A DNA stretch of 64,000 nt. Origin: Listeria grayi DSM 20601 (GTDB lineage Bacteria > Bacillota > Bacilli > Lactobacillales > Listeriaceae). The notes beneath the pieces were generated by a model. The model did no database searches. It was not told the origin of the DNA and was given only the letters and a program-made list of their open reading frames with translations. The translations under genes were made by a program, and so were the position numbers. The stretch is from contig NZ_GL538352.1 in NCBI RefSeq assembly GCF_000148995.1, positions 1 through 64,000 of the forward strand, in the 5' to 3' direction. Shown here piece after piece: positions 4,533 to 15,309 of the stretch. How positions within the stretch are numbered: position 1 is the first letter of the stretch; each line of letters begins with the position of its first letter.

Positions 4533-5645
4533 ATGAATAAAAACGGGATTTATGTATTATTAGTTGGATTAGTGATTATTGGCTGTGTAACTTTCAGTTT
4601 TGGAATCCAATCAAATGCAGCAACTAATGGTTACGTGAAAAAATATTTATTAGAGGAAAAGAAGAAAAAAGAAAATCCAGAACAAGATACAATTGATATG
4701 CTTAATGAATATTACTCCGCTGATGTTAAATTGCAAAAAATTGTCTTAAAATATAATAAAGATAAAAATTTAAATCAAGCTATTACATCAACTGACTTCA
4801 ATAAAAAGAGAAATGTCATGTATGCATTTATTAAACTGATTCCTAACATTAAAGATAGCCAAGATAAAAATGCTTTTCTTGAATATTTACAAAGGTATGT
4901 TAGTAATGGGGAAATCCGAGATGGAAAAGTAGAAGAATTTTTAAATAAAATTGAAGGGAAAAGTTTATTTAGCACACAAAAAGCAACGACGACAGTAGAT
5001 GAAGCATATGAAAAAAATATGAAAAATGGTAAATCTAGTGACGCGACAGGTGATGAATTTAAGAAAGAAAATCAGACTGCACATGTTGCAAAAGCATTTA
5101 ATAGAGTGAACGCGGGTAAATGGGCGTATAAAAACTATAATAAATATAGTAAAAGCTACCCTAAATTTACTGGGAAGTATAATGATTGTACCAACTTTGT
5201 TTCCCAAGCGCTTCATACTGGAGGAAAACTTGGCTTTTTTGGTAAATGGAAAATACATAGGAAAAATAAAAAATATTGGAATATTAATAGTGCGAAAAAG
5301 CTAGATTACAGCTGGTCTGTTACAGATCCTTCTCCGTGGATGTCAGCTCGTACTTTTAATTCTTACATGAGAAGTAAAGCTAAGTATACTTTTAATTATA
5401 GTAATAATTACTATCGTATTCATTATAAATCGATTTATAATCAAAAAATTTATAGAGGTAGTGCAGTTATCTTTTTAGAAGGCGTTGCAGGTATTTCTGT
5501 AAAGGCAAAGCACGTAATGATAATGAGTTCATATAATAGTAAAACTAAGGATATATTATTAGCCGGACATTCAACTGAAAGACAAAAATATTCATTAAGA
5601 AACGCAATTAAAAATTACTCAGAAGTGAATATCTATACTTTTTAA
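4533..5645 (+). CDS. Secreted amidase-domain protein (Amidase_6 type)
   Basis: 370 residues with a signal peptide (hydrophobic run at 6-24, probable cleavage after SNAA). A Lys/Glu-rich helical region follows to about residue 190. The C-terminal ~180 residues resemble the putative amidase domain PF12671: AGKWAYKNYNKYS..YPKF, then NDCTNFVSQALHTGGK with the likely catalytic Cys, W-containing segments, and a late KHVMIM / AGHST segment that could provide the His. Proteins of this family are thought to act on cell-wall peptides, unproven here. It forms an operon with the small membrane gene upstream and ends at a strong terminator. Confidence 0.8.
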   Translation: MNKNGIYVLLVGLVIIGCVTFSFGIQSNAATNGYVKKYLLEEKKKKENPEQDTIDMLNEYYSADVKLQKIVLKYNKDKNLNQAITSTDFNKKRNVMYAFIKLIPNIKDSQDKNAFLEYLQRYVSNGEIRDGKVEEFLNKIEGKSLFSTQKATTTVDEAYEKNMKNGKSSDATGDEFKKENQTAHVAKAFNRVNAGKWAYKNYNKYSKSYPKFTGKYNDCTNFVSQALHTGGKLGFFGKWKIHRKNKKYWNINSAKKLDYSWSVTDPSPWMSARTFNSYMRSKAKYTFNYSNNYYRIHYKSIYNQKIYRGSAVIFLEGVAGISVKAKHVMIMSSYNSKTKDILLAGHSTERQKYSLRNAIKNYSEVNIYTF

Positions 5646-5736: not shown

Positions 5737-5800
5737 AATTGGTATAGAAAGAAAACGATTTCCAAAAGTATCCATTTTTATTTACTTTTATTGATTTTAA
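5737..5800 (+). repeat. Internal copy of the island's right-end sequence
   Basis: AATTGGTATAG, then TTTCCAAAAGTATCCATTTTT and TTTACTTTT, closely parallel 12073-12136 near the right att site (roughly 80 percent identical by eye with short indels). This suggests a former element end inside the island, or a duplicated protein-binding region. Confidence 0.7.
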
Positions 5801-5844: not shown

Positions 5845-6351
5845 TTATATTGATAATGCAATTTCTTCGAAAAATTCGTTCATACTTATGCAACGAATTT
5901 TAAAGTCGTCACAGATATCGGGGATTTTAGCAGAAGCATGGGGTTTACTTGGAATAATATTTGGATTTTTTCGTTCATCTGTAACAATGGTAAAGTTTTC
6001 TTTTATAGCTATGGCAATTAGCCAAGGATCTGCAATAGTTTCTGTTGCCCAACCTTTTGGAGAAGTTAAAGCTGCATCTTTATATAGATCACTGTTAGTT
6101 ATATGATTTAATATTAATCCCCACTCTGGCGAATAACTTTTGTGATTTATTATTTCATTTTCATAATTGAGTTTTAGCCATTTTAAAAACCATTCACTTT
6201 GGAAAGTCTCTGAAATGACTACCTTAGGGATAGCGACAGAATCGTTTAATATAAATTTTAATTGATTCCAAAAGCTAGGGAAATAGTTGAATCTATAATA
6301 ACGGTCATAGAAGCTTATATAAATACTTGAGTCTAATAAATATTTTGTCAT
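5845..6351 (-). CDS. DUF4411 family PIN-domain protein
   Basis: 168 residues from the ATG at 6351, which follows GGGGGAAAG; a longer frame to 6399 lacks a ribosome binding site. It begins YLLDSSIYISFYDRYYRF with the first PIN-domain aspartate, has PSFW and later ATETIADPWLIAIA and TIVTDER, placing further acidic residues as in PIN ribonucleases. DUF4411 proteins are putative toxins of type II toxin-antitoxin systems, usually encoded after an XRE/ImmA-type antitoxin. No such partner is seen: immediately upstream is a truncated SUKH gene on the other strand. It is thus an orphan toxin-like gene, or its antitoxin was lost. Confidence 0.82.
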   Translation of the reverse strand: MTKYLLDSSIYISFYDRYYRFNYFPSFWNQLKFILNDSVAIPKVVISETFQSEWFLKWLKLNYENEIINHKSYSPEWGLILNHITNSDLYKDAALTSPKGWATETIADPWLIAIAIKENFTIVTDERKNPNIIPSKPHASAKIPDICDDFKIRCISMNEFFEEIALSI

Positions 6352-6411
6352 TTTATCTTTCCCCCACCAATGTTTTATAGCCTTTGTAACCAATGCCAAC
6401 TAGCAGTTCTT

Positions 6412-6836: not shown

Positions 6837-7820
6837 TTGAAAAAGAGGCTTAAAGACGTAATTGATTATTCTAAATTAGATGGAGAAATGAGGAGCATGA
6901 TTGAGAAGTTACCAGAATCTGCGGAGCAGGCTCTAATAGAAATATATGATGAGGACTCTGACTTTATAAGGTATGCTAGACTGGACAATATCTATGGAGA
7001 TTTTTCAATCAGCGACACTACTGAACTATACCATTATACAAGTTATGAAAACTTAGTATCTATTATAGAGGGAAAGAAGTTCTGGATTAAGAATAAGTCT
7101 TTTATGAACGATCCTAAAGAATTTAACTACACCTATGAATTATGTGAAATACTACTTAGTCAAATTGATGCAAGCGGAGATGAGATAAATGAATTTAAAA
7201 GTATAGTTAATACTACAAAATTTGATATATATTTGTGGTGTTTTTCTGAAAATAAGGCTTCTCAAGCTCTATGGGGAAATTATGGAAATAAAAATGGTGT
7301 AGCTTTAAGAATGAACATGAAGGTACTAATGGAAAGTTTAGCAGTGCACTTTTCAAACGGAAAAGATAACTTAAATGATTATACTGTAGGTAGTGCCTAT
7401 GTCATTCCTTTAAAAATTTTATATAATCAGGAAGAACAAATGAAAAGATTAAAAATTGTTTTATTACAGTGGTTAAGAGCAAGAAGGAATAACCAATTTG
7501 ATCCAGTTGATATGAGCGAAATCAAGGATTATTGTTTGCAAGCGCTGTTTACTTATGCATTAATGATGAAAAACCCTTTACTCTACCAAGAGGAAGAGGC
7601 AAGGTTCATTATTTTAAATTTTACGGAGGGAAATGAAGTCAATCCAGAATTTTATGATAGCAGTAATGTTCCTTATGTTTCTTGTCCATTGACTGATAGT
7701 ATGCTTTCTGAGGTTGTTATTCAAACAGGAAGTAGTATTAAACATTCAGATGTCAAATCAATTCTTTCTATTCACGGATATTTAAAAACTAAAATTTCTG
7801 ATTCCATTTTACCTTATTGA
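6837..7820 (+). CDS. DUF2971 family protein
   Basis: 327 residues from TTG 6837 after TAGGGAAG. The central region has the DUF2971 signature: ELYHYTSYENLVSIIEGKKFWIKN (residues ~63-85), SFMNDPKEF, then LWCFSENKASQALWGNYGNKNGVALRM (~134-160). DUF2971 proteins are found in many genomes and often in defence or mobile islands; the conserved H, ND and CFS residues suggest an enzyme, and a relation to ADP-ribosyl transferases has been suggested, but the activity is not established. It sits between the SUKH remnant and an unknown HEPN-like gene, well separated from both, so it is probably its own transcription unit. Confidence 0.8.
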   Translation: MKKRLKDVIDYSKLDGEMRSMIEKLPESAEQALIEIYDEDSDFIRYARLDNIYGDFSISDTTELYHYTSYENLVSIIEGKKFWIKNKSFMNDPKEFNYTYELCEILLSQIDASGDEINEFKSIVNTTKFDIYLWCFSENKASQALWGNYGNKNGVALRMNMKVLMESLAVHFSNGKDNLNDYTVGSAYVIPLKILYNQEEQMKRLKIVLLQWLRARRNNQFDPVDMSEIKDYCLQALFTYALMMKNPLLYQEEEARFIILNFTEGNEVNPEFYDSSNVPYVSCPLTDSMLSEVVIQTGSSIKHSDVKSILSIHGYLKTKISDSILPY

Positions 7821-7942: not shown

Positions 7943-9055
7943 ATGGAACTTTTACAAAAAATCTCATTTAGCATTCTCTTACAAGAGTCTTCAGAAGCGA
8001 GAAAAATTATTCATCAAATATTTAATTCGAAAGCAAAAAGTCAGAGAGATCTAAGTATCTGTATGATCCCATTCTTATCATCTATTTGCGAGGGTATAAT
8101 AACATCATTCCAATTACAAAATGTTGAGCTTAGTCTTCCTGATATTGAAGATATTTCGTTTGAAAAATTGGTCAAATCAACACGTGCTAGCTATAAATTA
8201 TATTCTGATAAAAAAACCAATAAATTACAAAACCAAGGTGAAGTGTGGAAAAATTATTTAGAAAGTAATTATAATTATTTTCAAAAGAAATTTATTCAAT
8301 TATTTGGACAAGAAGATTTAGGTGTATTTACATTTATTGATATTCCTTATGGAAATACCAGCCAGTATAATATATATTTGGAGAAGTTACTGGATTTGAA
8401 AACTGTAGTAACAATAGGTGCGAGAAACGAAAAAAGGACGAAATTATTAGAGTACTCTGGAATGTTAGCTTCACTAATAAATCAGATAGTTATGGATCTT
8501 TCTGAATATAATGGTGATAGAGAGGAGTCGGTATTGCTACAGCAGGATGAATTTAAATACAAAGATTATTACTTTTATGATAAAAAAAGAAAAAACGTAT
8601 TAGGCGGCAGTTTACCAATAAATACGCAGCTGTTTTTATTTAACATACTCTGTCAAAATAACTTTATAAATATCATAATGCCAGATATCTTTGATGTTTC
8701 AGGATCCTTTTATTATAGAACGAAGTTGCAAGCATATCTCATTAGTGTTAATAGTCTTTCACAAACGTTAAGAAATCATGCGTCACTTATTAATGAAAAA
8801 CAGGTTGAAATAGTTGAACAGCTAGTTGAGGAAAAAGGTAAGTATTTCACTTTTGAAAATAAATTGCGTAATAATATTTTTCATTATGAAATTAAAGGAG
8901 TTCCAGCCTCTATATTTAAAGATAAAAATCGGTACTTTGAAGAAATGGTTGAGTACTCCGTAGGTATAAATTATAAAAAAATTATAGATGAAATAGATAA
9001 TTCTTTAATAACAATCAACGAATTAATTAGGGATTTGATTAATTATGATATGTAA
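7943..9055 (+). CDS. Unknown protein with C-terminal HEPN-like motif
   Basis: 370 residues, ATG at 7943 after AGGAGA. I do not recognise the whole protein. The C-terminal third is helical and contains KLRNNIFHYEIKG, in which R309-N-x3-H314 fits the R-x4-6-H motif of HEPN ribonuclease or nucleotidyl-transfer domains. No membrane segment or signal peptide. The middle has a conserved-looking GVFTFIDIPYGNTS and a hydrophobic NTQLFLFNILCQNNF stretch. It lies 120 bases after DUF2971 and 300 bases before the Lamassu-like pair. HEPN proteins are frequent abortive-infection effectors, which with the context makes a defence role plausible but unproven. Confidence 0.6.
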   Translation: MELLQKISFSILLQESSEARKIIHQIFNSKAKSQRDLSICMIPFLSSICEGIITSFQLQNVELSLPDIEDISFEKLVKSTRASYKLYSDKKTNKLQNQGEVWKNYLESNYNYFQKKFIQLFGQEDLGVFTFIDIPYGNTSQYNIYLEKLLDLKTVVTIGARNEKRTKLLEYSGMLASLINQIVMDLSEYNGDREESVLLQQDEFKYKDYYFYDKKRKNVLGGSLPINTQLFLFNILCQNNFINIIMPDIFDVSGSFYYRTKLQAYLISVNSLSQTLRNHASLINEKQVEIVEQLVEEKGKYFTFENKLRNNIFHYEIKGVPASIFKDKNRYFEEMVEYSVGINYKKIIDEIDNSLITINELIRDLINYDM

Positions 9056-9357
9056 AATTAATGGAATGGAAGAGACATAGATGTTTATATTCATTGAGCT
9101 ATACTAACAAAGTAAGTATCTTCAGTATTAAAAACTAAATGATTTATATATTTTTATTTAAAAAAATTAATGCCTGAAAAAATCCTACATCCATAAAAAT
9201 AATTACACAATCACCCCCTACTAGCCAAGCCATTTACACACAAAAAAATTAATCCCACTAATTATATGGTCTTTTTTAAGAAATGATCGGATGTACATTA
9301 ATTTTATATATTCATGATATAATTAGATAAATAGTTTTCGCGAGGGAGGGATTAAAT
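9056..9357 (+). promoter_or_regulatory. Intergenic region with promoter for the defence pair
   Basis: 302 bases, very AT-rich. A TATAAT at 9318-9323 lies about 35 bases before the GGGAGGG ribosome binding site of the nuclease gene, with only a weak -35. No ORF or RNA was recognised in the rest. Confidence 0.5.
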
Positions 9358-10296
9358 ATGAGATTTGATAATGGAGGAGCAATTGCTCAAAAAGGATTTA
9401 ATTATCAAAATGCAGTAATATCTTTAGTTGCTATAAGAAATTATAAAAAACCAAATTTCGAAATTTATGTAGAAGCATCTGAAGATTTTGAAGTTCAATA
9501 TGATGGAAATTATCATGCTTATATTCAAGTAAAAGGCACGAAGTCGATGTCGTTAAAAAAACTTTTAAGCAAATCCAAGTTGAAATCTGGAGGAGAAAAA
9601 CCATCGATTATTGAGAAAAATTTAAATAGTGGTGGTTCGGAAGATAAATATAAAATTGTTGTCTATCATTTTACTGAGAATGATTTAAAAAGAATGCAAG
9701 AACAACAGAATGAAGAGGAGCTTTTTGAAAAATCTTATTTATTTTCTGATGGACAAAAAAAACAAATCAATCATCCCAATGCAGACAATTTATCACTTAT
9801 ATGCACTAATTTTAAGAATGATAAGATAAATGCAAGAACATACTTAAAAGGGGAAATGGCAGATCAAAATATTTCAATTGATGGTAAATCCGATATCTTA
9901 CTGGATCATCTAGATAGGATTATTTCAGAAAAAGCAGAATTCATTTTAAAAAAAGAGGATGACAGGAATTTTAAACGTATTTCTGCAGAAGAACTTAATC
10001 CAATATTACAAAAAACTATCGCTTTAGAGAAATTTGGTGTAATTTTATCAAAATTTGACTTTAATGAATATAAAAAAGCAAAAATAAATTTAGAAAAAAA
10101 TAAGATTGTCCTTGAATATGTCTATCTCAGAAATAAAGTTGTTGAAAAATTAAAGTTACTAGATTTGGATAACCTCCCCGAAGTTGAGGCGATTTCTGAA
10201 GTAATGAAATTAGCGGAAAGTCAAAAATTAGATGAAATTACGAGTTATGCTGTTTGTATCTCAGCATATTGTGATGTCATAGAAGGGGTGAGCTAA
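9358..10296 (+). CDS. lmuA: Cap4/DUF4297-type nuclease, Lamassu LmuA-like
   Basis: 312 residues, ATG 9358 after GGGAGGG. The N-terminus has the family pattern GG-A-x-KGFNYQ (residues 6-17), an acidic VEASEDFEV (38-46) and YIQVKG (55-60). Glu39, Asp43 and the Q57-x-K59 pair match the PD-(D/E)xK core of Cap4/DUF4297 effectors, which cut double-stranded DNA. The C-terminal ~130 residues are helical and probably contact the partner. The next gene starts two bases after the stop and encodes a zinc-hook SMC ATPase, the composition of a two-gene Lamassu antiphage system. Codon use is AT-rich like the rest of the island. The assignment rests on motifs and gene pairing, not a profile search. Confidence 0.78.
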   Translation: MRFDNGGAIAQKGFNYQNAVISLVAIRNYKKPNFEIYVEASEDFEVQYDGNYHAYIQVKGTKSMSLKKLLSKSKLKSGGEKPSIIEKNLNSGGSEDKYKIVVYHFTENDLKRMQEQQNEEELFEKSYLFSDGQKKQINHPNADNLSLICTNFKNDKINARTYLKGEMADQNISIDGKSDILLDHLDRIISEKAEFILKKEDDRNFKRISAEELNPILQKTIALEKFGVILSKFDFNEYKKAKINLEKNKIVLEYVYLRNKVVEKLKLLDLDNLPEVEAISEVMKLAESQKLDEITSYAVCISAYCDVIEGVS

Positions 10297-10298
10297 TA

Positions 10299-11957
10299 TT
10301 GAAATTAGTAATTAAAGAAATCATTATTTTTGATTACAATAATCAAAAAGCAAATCGATTTAGTTTTCAACCAGGTTCTAATCTGATTACTAGTAACTCA
10401 AATGAGGCAGGAAAGTCTAGTTTGATTAAATCAATTTATTATACCTTGGGAGCTAGAGTCTCTACATTTCCAACAGGTTGGGAATACAAAAAATATATTT
10501 TTCAAATAAAAATTTTTATAAATGATAAAGAGGTTATTATTAAGAGGCAAGATGAAATTTTTACAGTTCAACATGATGGAAAAAAAGAAATCTTTTCAAA
10601 TGAAAAAGACTTTGCAACTTGGTTTCAAAATCAAGTAGGTATGCAAATGAAGTTACAAGAACAAAAATCTTCTAAAGTATCTATAGCCTATATGAATGCA
10701 ATTTTGACTCCTTATTTTATTGATCAAGATAAATCATGGAGCTCATTTTATAAAAATGCAATTGATAAGGTAGGCATGTATAAAAATCAACCAAAAGTAA
10801 TATTTGAAAATATTTTAGGTGTATCTGATGTGGAATTACAAAATTTAGAGTTTGAAAGAGCTCAAGCAATAAAACTAAAGGAGGATTTAGTTTCAAAAAT
10901 ATCACAAGTAGATTCTGTTTATAAAAACTATCAAATACAAAAACAAGTAACTAAAGCAGCTCCAGAAAATATTGATAGTTTAAAAGAAGAAATATCAGAT
11001 TATTTAAAAATAACCGATGAGCTTAGTAATGAAATAGAGAAGTATACTGAAAAGCTATCGAAAAATAAAATTTCTGTGGATATTAATTGTCAAGATTTAG
11101 ATGAACTAAAAAAATTACTTTCTAAAACTGATAAAAGATACAAGGAAGTCGCATTTGAGTGTACATACTGTCATTCTCTCTTGACAAAGGAGCAATCTCT
11201 TACAAGGTTAACACTTTCAGATAATGACTTTGAAATTAGAGGTAGAGTTCATGAGTTGAATCACAAAATTGAATTAGGTAAGAGCGAATTAAATTCAATT
11301 GAATTGGAAATAGAAAAATTAAAAACATCATATTCGGAATACAACTTAAAAATAAAGGATTTAAAATCGGCAGTGAAAATTGAAGACTTTGTCAGTCAAA
11401 AGGTATTATCTGAACTAAATGGCTTGAAGATTCAACAGAATAAAGAAAAATCAGTAGTCGAGAGTTCTATATTAGAATATACTAAAGAAATTAATCCTTT
11501 AAGAAAAGAACTAAAGAAAAAGAAAACGATTCTTAATGAAAACTTTGAGATATTAAAAAATAGTGTTTCAACAGAGGTCGGAACATCTAACTTGCATAAT
11601 AGGAAATTTTTAGATTTTTCTGCTATCGAAGGAGGAGGTACAGCAATGAATAAGGATTTTCTAGTTTTATATTTAACTTACTCAAAAATGATAGATAAAT
11701 ATAGTGAATTTAAATTTCCTTTGGCAATGGATTCTTTTATAAAAAATGAAATCACGGATTTAAATGAATCTAAAATGTTTGAGGCAGTGCAGAAACATTT
11801 TATTGATTTAGATATTCAAACTTTCTTCTCAGTTATCAATAAAAATTTGAGTCATTTAGATACATCTCACTCGTATGCAGTGAAAATTAGTAAGCCTATT
11901 TTAAATGATGAGAATTATATTTATTTACAGAGTCAAATTATTGAAATCGATGATTAA
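10299..11957 (+). CDS. lmuB: SMC/Rad50-like ATPase with zinc hook, Lamassu LmuB-like
   Basis: 552 residues from TTG 10299, nine bases after AAGGGGTG. The N-terminal ATPase half contains SNEAGKSSLIKSIYYTLGA (Walker A, GKS at 38-40; the usual first Gly is Asn). A coiled coil runs from ~180 to ~420, broken at its apex by CTYC (288-291), a Rad50-type CxxC zinc hook. The C-terminal half has SAIEGGGTAMNKDFLVLYLTY (signature, ~441-461) and FPLAMDSF (Walker B region, ~473-480). The short coiled coil and FPLAMDS pattern fit LmuB/ABC-3C-type SMC proteins rather than housekeeping SbcC or RecN. It would sense unusual DNA ends or structures and license the upstream nuclease (known for Lamassu; inferred here). 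No third subunit lies between the two genes. Confidence 0.82.
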   Translation: MKLVIKEIIIFDYNNQKANRFSFQPGSNLITSNSNEAGKSSLIKSIYYTLGARVSTFPTGWEYKKYIFQIKIFINDKEVIIKRQDEIFTVQHDGKKEIFSNEKDFATWFQNQVGMQMKLQEQKSSKVSIAYMNAILTPYFIDQDKSWSSFYKNAIDKVGMYKNQPKVIFENILGVSDVELQNLEFERAQAIKLKEDLVSKISQVDSVYKNYQIQKQVTKAAPENIDSLKEEISDYLKITDELSNEIEKYTEKLSKNKISVDINCQDLDELKKLLSKTDKRYKEVAFECTYCHSLLTKEQSLTRLTLSDNDFEIRGRVHELNHKIELGKSELNSIELEIEKLKTSYSEYNLKIKDLKSAVKIEDFVSQKVLSELNGLKIQQNKEKSVVESSILEYTKEINPLRKELKKKKTILNENFEILKNSVSTEVGTSNLHNRKFLDFSAIEGGGTAMNKDFLVLYLTYSKMIDKYSEFKFPLAMDSFIKNEITDLNESKMFEAVQKHFIDLDIQTFFSVINKNLSHLDTSHSYAVKISKPILNDENYIYLQSQIIEIDD

Positions 11958-12204
11958 AGTATTAAACTTAGGTTGTTTTTCTATTATTGGAAAAATGTCT
12001 CAAAATTTTTTCTACTTATAGACTAAAAAAATACTATGTAATGAAAATTAAGGATTACTAAAATGACTTCATAATTGGTATAGGAAAATAAAGGTTTCCA
12101 AAAAGTATCCATTTTTCTTTACTTTTGATAGCTTTGAATCCTATTTTATGGTCTTACTGCACTTAAAACCATAAAAACAGCTCAAACAACCCCTATCCAC
12201 ACCC
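11958..12204 (+). other. Right end of the island, non-coding
   Basis: About 250 bases without a supported gene. It contains the right-end repeat at 12073-12136, including TTTCCAAAAAGTATCCAT, and runs into the att repeat at 12205. Confidence 0.6.
12073..12136 (+). repeat. Right-end repeat, paired with 5737-5800
   Basis: Shares AATTGGTATAG, TTTCCA, AAAGTATCCATTTTT and TTTACTTTT with the internal copy. It lies about 70 bases inside the right att repeat, where integrase arm sites would be expected. Confidence 0.7.
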
Positions 12205-12266
12205 CTCAAAATCCAGTGCCCGTTAAGGGCGTGCCGGTTCGACCCCGGCCGCCGGTATCAAGTAGC
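12205..12266 (+). repeat. attR-side direct repeat (partial tRNA-Leu)
   Basis: Exact 62-bp copy of 1926-1987: the tRNA-Leu(CAA) 3' portion from the anticodon loop onward. It lacks the 5' acceptor strand, D arm and anticodon stem 5' side, so it is not a tRNA gene. It marks the right boundary of the inserted island of about 10.3 kb. Confidence 0.92.
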
Positions 12267-12298
12267 TCAATGCTTTTAGTAGCATTGGGGTTTTATTC
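12266..12298 (+). terminator. Duplicated tRNA-operon terminator
   Basis: CTCAATGCT / AGCATTGGGG hairpin with a T run, a slightly diverged copy of the terminator at 1987-2018. Confidence 0.75.
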
Positions 12299-13972: not shown

Positions 13973-15309
13973 ATGATGTTTCATGATATTTTTACGAAAA
14001 TGGAGAAATACTTACTGCCGATTTCTGCTCGAATCGGAGCGCAGCGACATATGTTAGCAATTCGAGATGCGTTTTCCAGTATCATGGCTGATTTGATCGT
14101 AGGATCGGTTGCTTCACTAATCAATAATTTTCCTTATCAGCCATTTCAAGATTTTATGACAGCGGTATTTACGGAAACATGGAAAGAACCAGGAAATATC
14201 ATCTACAACATGACGATGGGGATCTTGGGATTGTTGGTTGCGATCAGTATCGGCTATTATTTGGCTCAGCCTTATAAATTGGATGGGATCAGTTCCGCCC
14301 TGATGTCAGGGATATCATTTTTGATTTTGACGCCTTTCTTGAAGGATGGGAGTCCAACGTTGGATTGGCTGGGGCAAAGGGATTATTCGTGGCCATGATC
14401 GTCGGGATCTTCACAACAGAAATTTATCATTTTATTGTGAAACAGGGTTGGACGATCAAAATGCCGGAGGGTGTTCCACCTGCTGTTACAAGTGGCTTTG
14501 TTGCTTTGATTCCTTCATTTGTTATTTTTATACTGGTTGGATTGATTGCGAGTGTATTAAAGGCAACGACAGGATTATCGCTAACAGAAATTATTTATCA
14601 ATTATTACAAGCGCCGTTTCAGCAAATCGGAGATACGATACCGGCAATGTGTCTACTAATGTTTGCCCGAGGTTTCTTATGGTTTTTCGGTATCCATGGA
14701 ACGAATGTGTTAGGTCCGATCTCAGACAGCATTTTATTACCGAATATTGAGGAGAATGCCCGATATTTCGCGCAAGGTGTTTCTGCTTACGATGTACCGA
14801 AAATAGCGACAAGTTCTTTTATTTCGCAGTTTGTCAGTATTGGAGGAACGGGTGTCGGACTTGCGTTTGTTATTGCGGTGATTATTATCTCACGGAGTAA
14901 AGCAACCCGGAAATTAAGCATTGGGGCTACACCAGGTGTTTTATTCAACATCAATGAACCAATTCTATACGGTGTGCCGATCGTTTTGAATGCTTCGCTG
15001 ATCATTCCGTTTTTGCTGACACCGATTGTATTGATCATTGTCGGTTATATTGCAATGGGAACGGTGTTGGTTCCGAAAACGGTGGCGCTCGTGCCTTGGA
15101 ATATGCCAGTGTTGATTGGTGGTTATTTATCAACGGGCGGTTCCTTCAGGGGTGTTATTTTACAGATCGTGGATGTCGTCATTGCTACGTTGATTTATCT
15201 GCCATTCATTAAACTGAATGACCGTGTGGAAGCGAAGATCAATGTAGCGGAGAAGCAGAAATCGCAGAGAATAGATAAAGGAGCAAAAATGAGATGGGAA
15301 ATAAATTAA
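13973..15309 (+). pseudogene. PTS lactose/cellobiose EIIC, frameshifted
   Basis: Membrane permease of the lactose/cellobiose PTS family in two frames. The first (13973-14398) begins IFTKMEKYLLPISARIGAQRH and runs through the first membrane segments to SPTLDWL. The second resumes at about 14373 with GAKGLFVAMIVGIFTTEIYHFI and continues through GFLWFFGIHGTNVLGP and FNINEPILYGVPIVLN to 15309. One base is missing around CTGGGGC (14372-14377); restoring it gives the family's LGAKGLF motif. Start ATG 13973 (or 13976) follows AAAGGGGGAAG. Its end overlaps the ChbG-type gene. A cre site precedes it. Either a recent mutation or a sequencing error in the G run. Confidence 0.88.

Follow-up and report, generated by a model that had tools for sequence, protein, structure and literature searches.

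As described in parts of PMC10586767 and PMC12904381, dimers of the ATPase LmuB in Lamassu defence systems sense DNA ends or hairpin-like structures and restrain the nuclease LmuA, which then cuts DNA and brings about abortive infection. Type II systems (LmuACB / DdmABC; PDB 9hqu, 9hqx, 9hr5, 9uxh and 9nyg) carry LmuC between LmuA and LmuB, whereas the two-gene form that lacks LmuC is termed type I (PMC8565338, PMC10586767), and LmuC is present in about 10.2% of the Lamassu systems detected by PADLOC (PMC8565338). Here we describe a pair of genes in a 64,000-nucleotide stretch of Listeria grayi DSM 20601 (contig NZ_GL538352.1, positions 1 to 64,000, forward strand; hereafter the window) that almost certainly constitutes a type I (two-gene, Cap4-nuclease) Lamassu system, in which LmuB would sense DNA and LmuA would cut it. 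Systems of this kind are already known and a relative has been solved structurally; the pair described here is a divergent addition to a two-gene branch that occurs in Listeria, streptococci, a lactobacillus, an Enterococcaceae metagenome-assembled genome (MAG), and an actinobacterial MAG, and its nearest LmuB relative is 43% identical.

Organization and assignment of the locus

The two genes are as follows.

9358-10296, + strand: lmuA, 312 amino acids (aa), ATG start at 9358, Cap4-type PD-(D/E)xK nuclease, putative effector
10299-11957, + strand: lmuB, 552 aa, TTG start, Rad50/SMC-like ATPase, putative sensor (PADLOC LmuB profile PDLC00252, 702 bits; 9ux7_A, E 1.3e-85; model with a predicted local distance difference test score, pLDDT, of 85.7)

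Both are intact and lie on the same strand, with stop codons ending at 10296 and 11957, and the coordinates bear out an initial sequence-only reading of this DNA in placing them 2 bases apart. The same reading had proposed a Lamassu LmuA-LmuB pair without LmuC, and the full-length profile matches reported below, together with the 2-base gap, refine this to type I. The pair occupies the right end of an AT-rich stretch, the GC content being about 27% over 9-12 kb as against 38-44% over the following 5 kb.

Among solved structures the nearest is PDB 9ux7, a two-protein LmuAB-DNA complex (LmuB E 1.3e-85, LmuA E 2.4e-32), and both subunits are alike over nearly their full lengths to those of 9ux7 and 9ux8. 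The LmuB proteins of 9ux7 and the window share the CxYC form of the zinc hook, the Walker B sequence MDSFIKNE, and the lack of the first P-loop glycine, although the P-loop residue is Lys there and Asn here and the hook is CQYC there and CTYC here. Identity to 9ux7 is about 31-33%. The type II systems have the same effector nuclease fold and the same LmuB head/coil fold, but in the window the 2-base gap leaves no LmuC between lmuA and lmuB. No open reading frame (ORF) of at least 60 aa is present downstream of lmuB in 11958-12204, and none of the four other island genes scanned with PADLOC matches LmuC; the search for it did not extend to the remainder of the genome.

A third component could instead be encoded just upstream, either by a 370-aa gene (7943-9055) or by a DUF2971 gene (6837-7820), standing in for LmuC. 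Both are on the same strand and in the same island as lmuAB, but about 300 bases separate the candidates from lmuA, and tblastn at E 1e-3 detects no counterpart of either gene at 28 relative loci with Lamassu genes or their remains (some of them short, cut, or the same record twice). Moreover, a relative of the 370-aa gene is found in a genome (G433) without an LmuA match. We regard such a third part as very unlikely and rejected it on these grounds.

Several points weigh against the type I assignment or its details. A review states that Lamassu 'usually' has three components (PMC10586767, in the part consulted), which sits uneasily with the PADLOC figure, though both sources accept two-gene forms. 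Features of 9ux7 may not all carry over to the window at about 31-33% identity, with even the closest LmuB only 43% identical; literature searches found no paper on the 9ux7 structure, whose mechanism is known here from entry titles and chain counts. Lastly, no promoter stands out, with 13 promoter-like sites in the region compared to 20.3 expected by shuffling, and a single weak promoter-like site upstream of lmuA (9174-9203, 9/12).

The LmuA nuclease

LmuA matches the PADLOC LmuA profile PDLC00241 over its full length with 422 bits (E 4e-127), and the Pfam Cap4_nuclease family PF14130 with 47.3 bits against a cut-off of 26.2; its predicted model adopts the fold seen in Cap4 and LmuA nucleases. 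The motifs GFNYQ (residues 13-17), VEASEDFEV (38-46), and QVK (57-59), from which a Cap4/DUF4297-type nuclease had been recognized in the sequence-only reading, are all present, and a placement outside the PD-(D/E)xK nucleases, named beforehand as a result that would speak against that reading, did not occur, as seen from the PF14130 match and the fold of the model. The PD-(D/E)xK residues of the nuclease are in place: E39, D43, Q57, and K59 do not vary among the 13/13 LmuA proteins aligned.

9472-9534, + strand: predicted LmuA active site, codons E39 to K59, with E39, D43, Q57, and K59 invariant; role assigned by likeness to Cap4/PD-(D/E)xK enzymes

Nucleases of this type are also used by other systems, and the LmuA fold matches those of Hachiman, HerA-DUF, Cap4, and Avs3. 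There are weak matches of LmuA to HamA models (E 2.7e-6), and an LmuA profile reaches a Hachiman chain (8zue, E 1.6e-7). It is nonetheless hardly conceivable that the pair belongs to Hachiman, HerA-DUF4297, Avs, or CBASS Cap4: the LmuA model scores about 400 bits above HamA, the partner is LmuB, and scans of the neighbouring genes (six proteins, with PADLOC, in the case of HamB) reveal no HamB helicase, HerA ATPase, or cyclase. Hachiman was rejected on these grounds.

The LmuB ATPase and its zinc hook

LmuB matches the PADLOC profile PDLC00252 over positions 2-553 of 554 (702 bits, E 2e-211), such that both genes of the pair match Lamassu profiles over their full length in the Cap4 and LmuB profile check that the sequence-only reading had proposed. 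No Pfam family scores above its cut-off for LmuB, and the five sub-threshold matches up to E=1 include no SMC, AAA, or RecN family; six NCBIfam matches, including Rad50 and RecF, reach 12.4-30.7 bits against cut-offs of at least 300. When its own genome is searched with a profile of 18 LmuB proteins, this lmuB scores 681.8 bits and the next place 15.6 bits.

An ATPase with this head fold might be a housekeeping repair protein of the SbcC/RecN/RecF type that lies beside a nuclease gene by chance. LmuB, whose predicted fold matches 9ux7_A, does have a Rad50/SMC head fold, a profile from alignment A4 reaches Rad50 chains (E 2e-4), and there is a weak SbcC-like match in PHROGs (E 4e-5). Set against these are the 702-bit LmuB match with no Pfam repair-ATPase match up to E=1, the lack of a comparable gene elsewhere in the genome, the position of LmuA as upstream partner in 16/17 loci, and the presence of that partner in only 2/25 genus genomes. 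This explanation is exceedingly improbable and was rejected; the grouping with housekeeping SbcC/RecN that had been named in advance as contrary evidence was not found (the Pfam and NCBIfam matches being sub-threshold), and the SMC ATPase with a CTYC zinc hook noted from the letters is instead a full-length, Rad50-like LmuB in which C288 and C291 are present. Zinc hooks occur in many, though not all, LmuB proteins, as given in part of PMC10586767.

11160-11171, + strand: zinc hook of LmuB (C288-T-Y-C291), located at the tip of the coiled coil; C288 in 50/51 and C291 in 49/51 aligned LmuB proteins

In the model the hook follows a helix (225-282) and lies in a low-confidence stretch (pLDDT 54-56).

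The nucleotide-binding site departs from the usual pattern at two places.

10395-10421, + strand: LmuB Walker A, N33-S41 (NSNEAGKSS); K39 and S40 kept in 49/49 LmuB proteins with letters there, gaps in 2/51
11730-11735, + strand: LmuB Walker B, D478-S479; Ser replaces the catalytic Glu, and the model strand 475-477 ends just before

The first of these concerns the P-loop (N33-SNEA-G38-K39-S40), which has Asn where the first Gly is expected. A degenerate first Gly had been pointed out in the sequence-only reading, and the comparison extends this to the branch: the first Gly is found in 0/16 LmuB proteins of the branch (defined from the LmuB tree, and read by eye from aligned strings) as against 18/49 in the whole set. 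Judged from these alignments, the odd P-loop is a trait common to the whole branch, not a defect of this copy.

The second, the lost Walker B glutamate, is the more telling change. Of the 51 aligned LmuB proteins, 39 have Ser at position 479, 9 have Ala, 2 have Thr, and 1 has Glu, in a set that includes near-identical copies (e.g. L129/L130, L110/L111, and L093/L094/L054) and was mostly gathered by two patterns, one of which contains DSF and therefore favours Ser; the distant DSP and DAP rows do not fit the DSF pattern. Nine of the 55 LmuB loci described below, with frames shorter than 485 aa (L104, L105, L114, L115, L117, L118, L127, L135, and L140) were dropped from this set, and L106 and L145 were additionally left out of the LmuB tree. 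D478 and Q143 are each present in 51/51 sequences, E484 is nearly invariant, and the switch region has a His, which may or may not be the switch His, in 2/51 rows. A Glu-to-Gln change at Walker B, with low hydrolysis deduced from it, is given for LmuB generally in PMC10586767, the relevant section of which describes this change only.

Because the catalytic Glu is replaced by Ser479, the window LmuB is predicted to bind ATP and to hydrolyse it slowly or not at all, acting as a non-hydrolysing, one-shot sensor; the loss of hydrolysis stays a prediction because E484 could in principle aid catalysis. More tentatively, and with rather less than even confidence, we suggest that this applies branch-wide, with LmuB proteins that do not hydrolyse ATP (Walker B Ser/Ala/Thr, and probably no usual switch His) forming a one-shot clamp, locked by ATP, that would itself hold the nuclease and let it go without LmuC; LmuC would then be required only in systems where the contacts between LmuB and LmuA differ. 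That the catalytic Glu is so consistently lost allows a simple test of whether Lamassu sensing needs ATP hydrolysis at all.

Proposed mechanism

The make-up of the complex, its trigger, the activation of the nuclease, and abortive infection are inferred by analogy with the relatives. Two LmuB subunits would be joined via the zinc hook and the ATP-bound heads and would hold one LmuA, with the LmuB dimer sensing DNA ends or odd DNA structures from a replicating phage or plasmid. On recognition LmuA would be released or switched on to cut double-stranded DNA, which would stop the phage and probably kill the cell. Titles of PDB entries among the relatives include 'nuclease sequestration state' and 'LmuA nuclease tetramer bound to DNA duplex', and the LmuAB-DNA entry suggests that a two-gene complex can form without LmuC.

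Relatives and distribution

With alignment A1, 55 LmuB loci were recovered from a species-level collection of genomes and 12 loci from viral contigs; single-protein LmuB scans of genome contigs and of viral contigs found no relative. In the 17 loci L091-L107, LmuA is directly upstream of LmuB in 16, the other (L106) being cut by a contig end; this count leaves out L117, L118, and L135, where only the C-terminal part of an LmuB of this type survives and no LmuA precedes it. The lmuA-lmuB spacing in the 14/17 loci with a whole LmuB ranges from -71 to +7 bases and thus leaves no room for LmuC, the value of -71 probably reflecting an early start codon that was picked automatically. There are 36 further upstream ORFs that are not reached by the branch LmuA profile, and the two scanned with PADLOC (L108 and L110) are both LmuA.

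In the LmuB tree the window LmuB forms a group of 4 rows (support 100/95) with Agrilactobacillus, the Enterococcaceae MAG, and an Ancillula MAG, apart from Listeria goaensis. Lamassu genes are present in Listeria species too, in L. goaensis (L098) and in Listeria portnoyi (L106, an LmuB cut by the contig end), but the L. goaensis LmuB is in another part of the tree (34-36% identity), which suggests a separate gain. The same lmuA-lmuB pair occurs in Streptococcus mitis and S. sp. Marseille-Q0941 (L093-L095), with identities of 38-39% for LmuB and 53-55% for LmuA (L093 and L095). Among the neighbours of the S. mitis-type loci are a gene for a cytosine methyltransferase and one resembling restriction enzymes (profiles were run on L053 only), neither of which is seen beside the pair described here. 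At the Streptococcus loci L053-L055, the genes adjoining lmuAB encode a cytosine methyltransferase, a small helix-turn-helix protein, and a 406-aa protein matching type II restriction enzyme models (profiles again run on L053 only), and from this gene content the region is, as we read it, a composite defence island.

LmuA is present in 2/25 genomes of the genus, 9/395 of the order (one copy truncated), and 7/398 of the class (two weak or short) in samples that overlap, and this patchy spread fits horizontal transfer. Over the phylum the LmuB profile matches 41/398 genomes, which is not a count of Lamassu systems because only five, including the window genome, pass 50 bits. A DNA search of plasmids gave no match, and a search of plasmids with LmuA found none; LmuB protein searches gave 27 plasmid records and 13 phage records. 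Query coverage reaches at least 80% in 3 of the plasmid records, with identities of 22.3-24.5%, and in none of the phage records.

Broken Lamassu loci are also seen (L059, L060, L104, L117, L118, and L135), including an LmuA with no LmuB found, beside a transposase-like gene, a truncated LmuA (L060), a short LmuB frame (L104), and C-terminal LmuB remnants in streptococci (L117, L118, and L135). Lamassu seems to be often lost among the relatives.

The tRNA-Leu island

The pair lies in a tRNA-anchored island, as was recognized from the sequence at the outset, bounded by 62-bp copies of the 3′ end of the tRNA-Leu gene and containing an integrase remnant.

1893-1980, + strand: tRNA-Leu (CAA), integration site (ARAGORN)
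1926-1987, + strand: left end repeat (attL-like), 62-bp exact direct repeat, within and just past the 3′ part of the tRNA-Leu
2084-2548, - strand: tyrosine integrase remnant, C-terminal part only (Pfam Phage_integrase 67-170/172; PHROG phrog_1 333-450/611)
12205-12266, + strand: right end repeat (attR-like), 62-bp exact direct repeat, spacing 10279

After a short break, a further 27-bp repeat follows beyond the 62-bp repeats (1990-2016 and 12268-12294). Because this tRNA is accompanied by integrase-like sequence in three further genomes of the genus as well (L062 with 73% identity, L063 with 30%, and L078 in short pieces only), the tRNA-Leu seems to be a recurrent integration target. The right border is placed by the repeat alone, since the NUDIX gene to its right has no close counterpart in 24 other genus genomes (14/24 with some match, none better than E 7.9e-7, at 31% identity) and the flank has no match in the tRNA-Leu loci of other genomes (loci of about 2-3.3 kb); DNA past the right repeat may also be accessory.

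Both the integrase and a peptidase M23 gene near the Lamassu pair are truncated, and for this reason the element is probably no longer self-mobile. These truncations, and the broken relatives (L060 LmuA; L117, L118, L135, and L104 LmuB), could be taken to indicate that lmuAB is itself inactive and in decay, within an island that is dead, but both genes are full length, with the conserved LmuA residues and the LmuB ATP-binding residues in place, and we consider decay unlikely.

Other genes in the island and nearby

For the 370-aa gene (7943-9055, + strand), searches of Pfam, PADLOC, NCBIfam, and PHROGs gave no match within the limits applied; its 50% relative in G433, one of 60 related genomes searched, is outside a Lamassu context in the stretch read. 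The DUF2971 gene (6837-7820, + strand; 24.6 bits against a cut-off of 22) weakly matches the PADLOC candidate PDC-S31 and is a possible second defence gene; its product is 53.5% identical to that of an Enterococcus hirae plasmid gene located beside recombinase genes. A DUF4411 gene (5845-6399, - strand, 108.6 bits), belonging to what we take to be a PIN-like toxin family, has no ORF of at least 60 aa listed just upstream on its strand. Also inside the island are a gene for an Amidase_6 domain protein with an N-terminal hydrophobic stretch (4533-5645, + strand), and a direct repeat of 43 nt, 84% alike (5747-5789 and 12084-12126). To the right of the island, a phosphotransferase system (PTS) EIIC domain extends over two overlapping frames (13973-14398 and 14365-15309), and the gene looks frameshifted or mis-sequenced.
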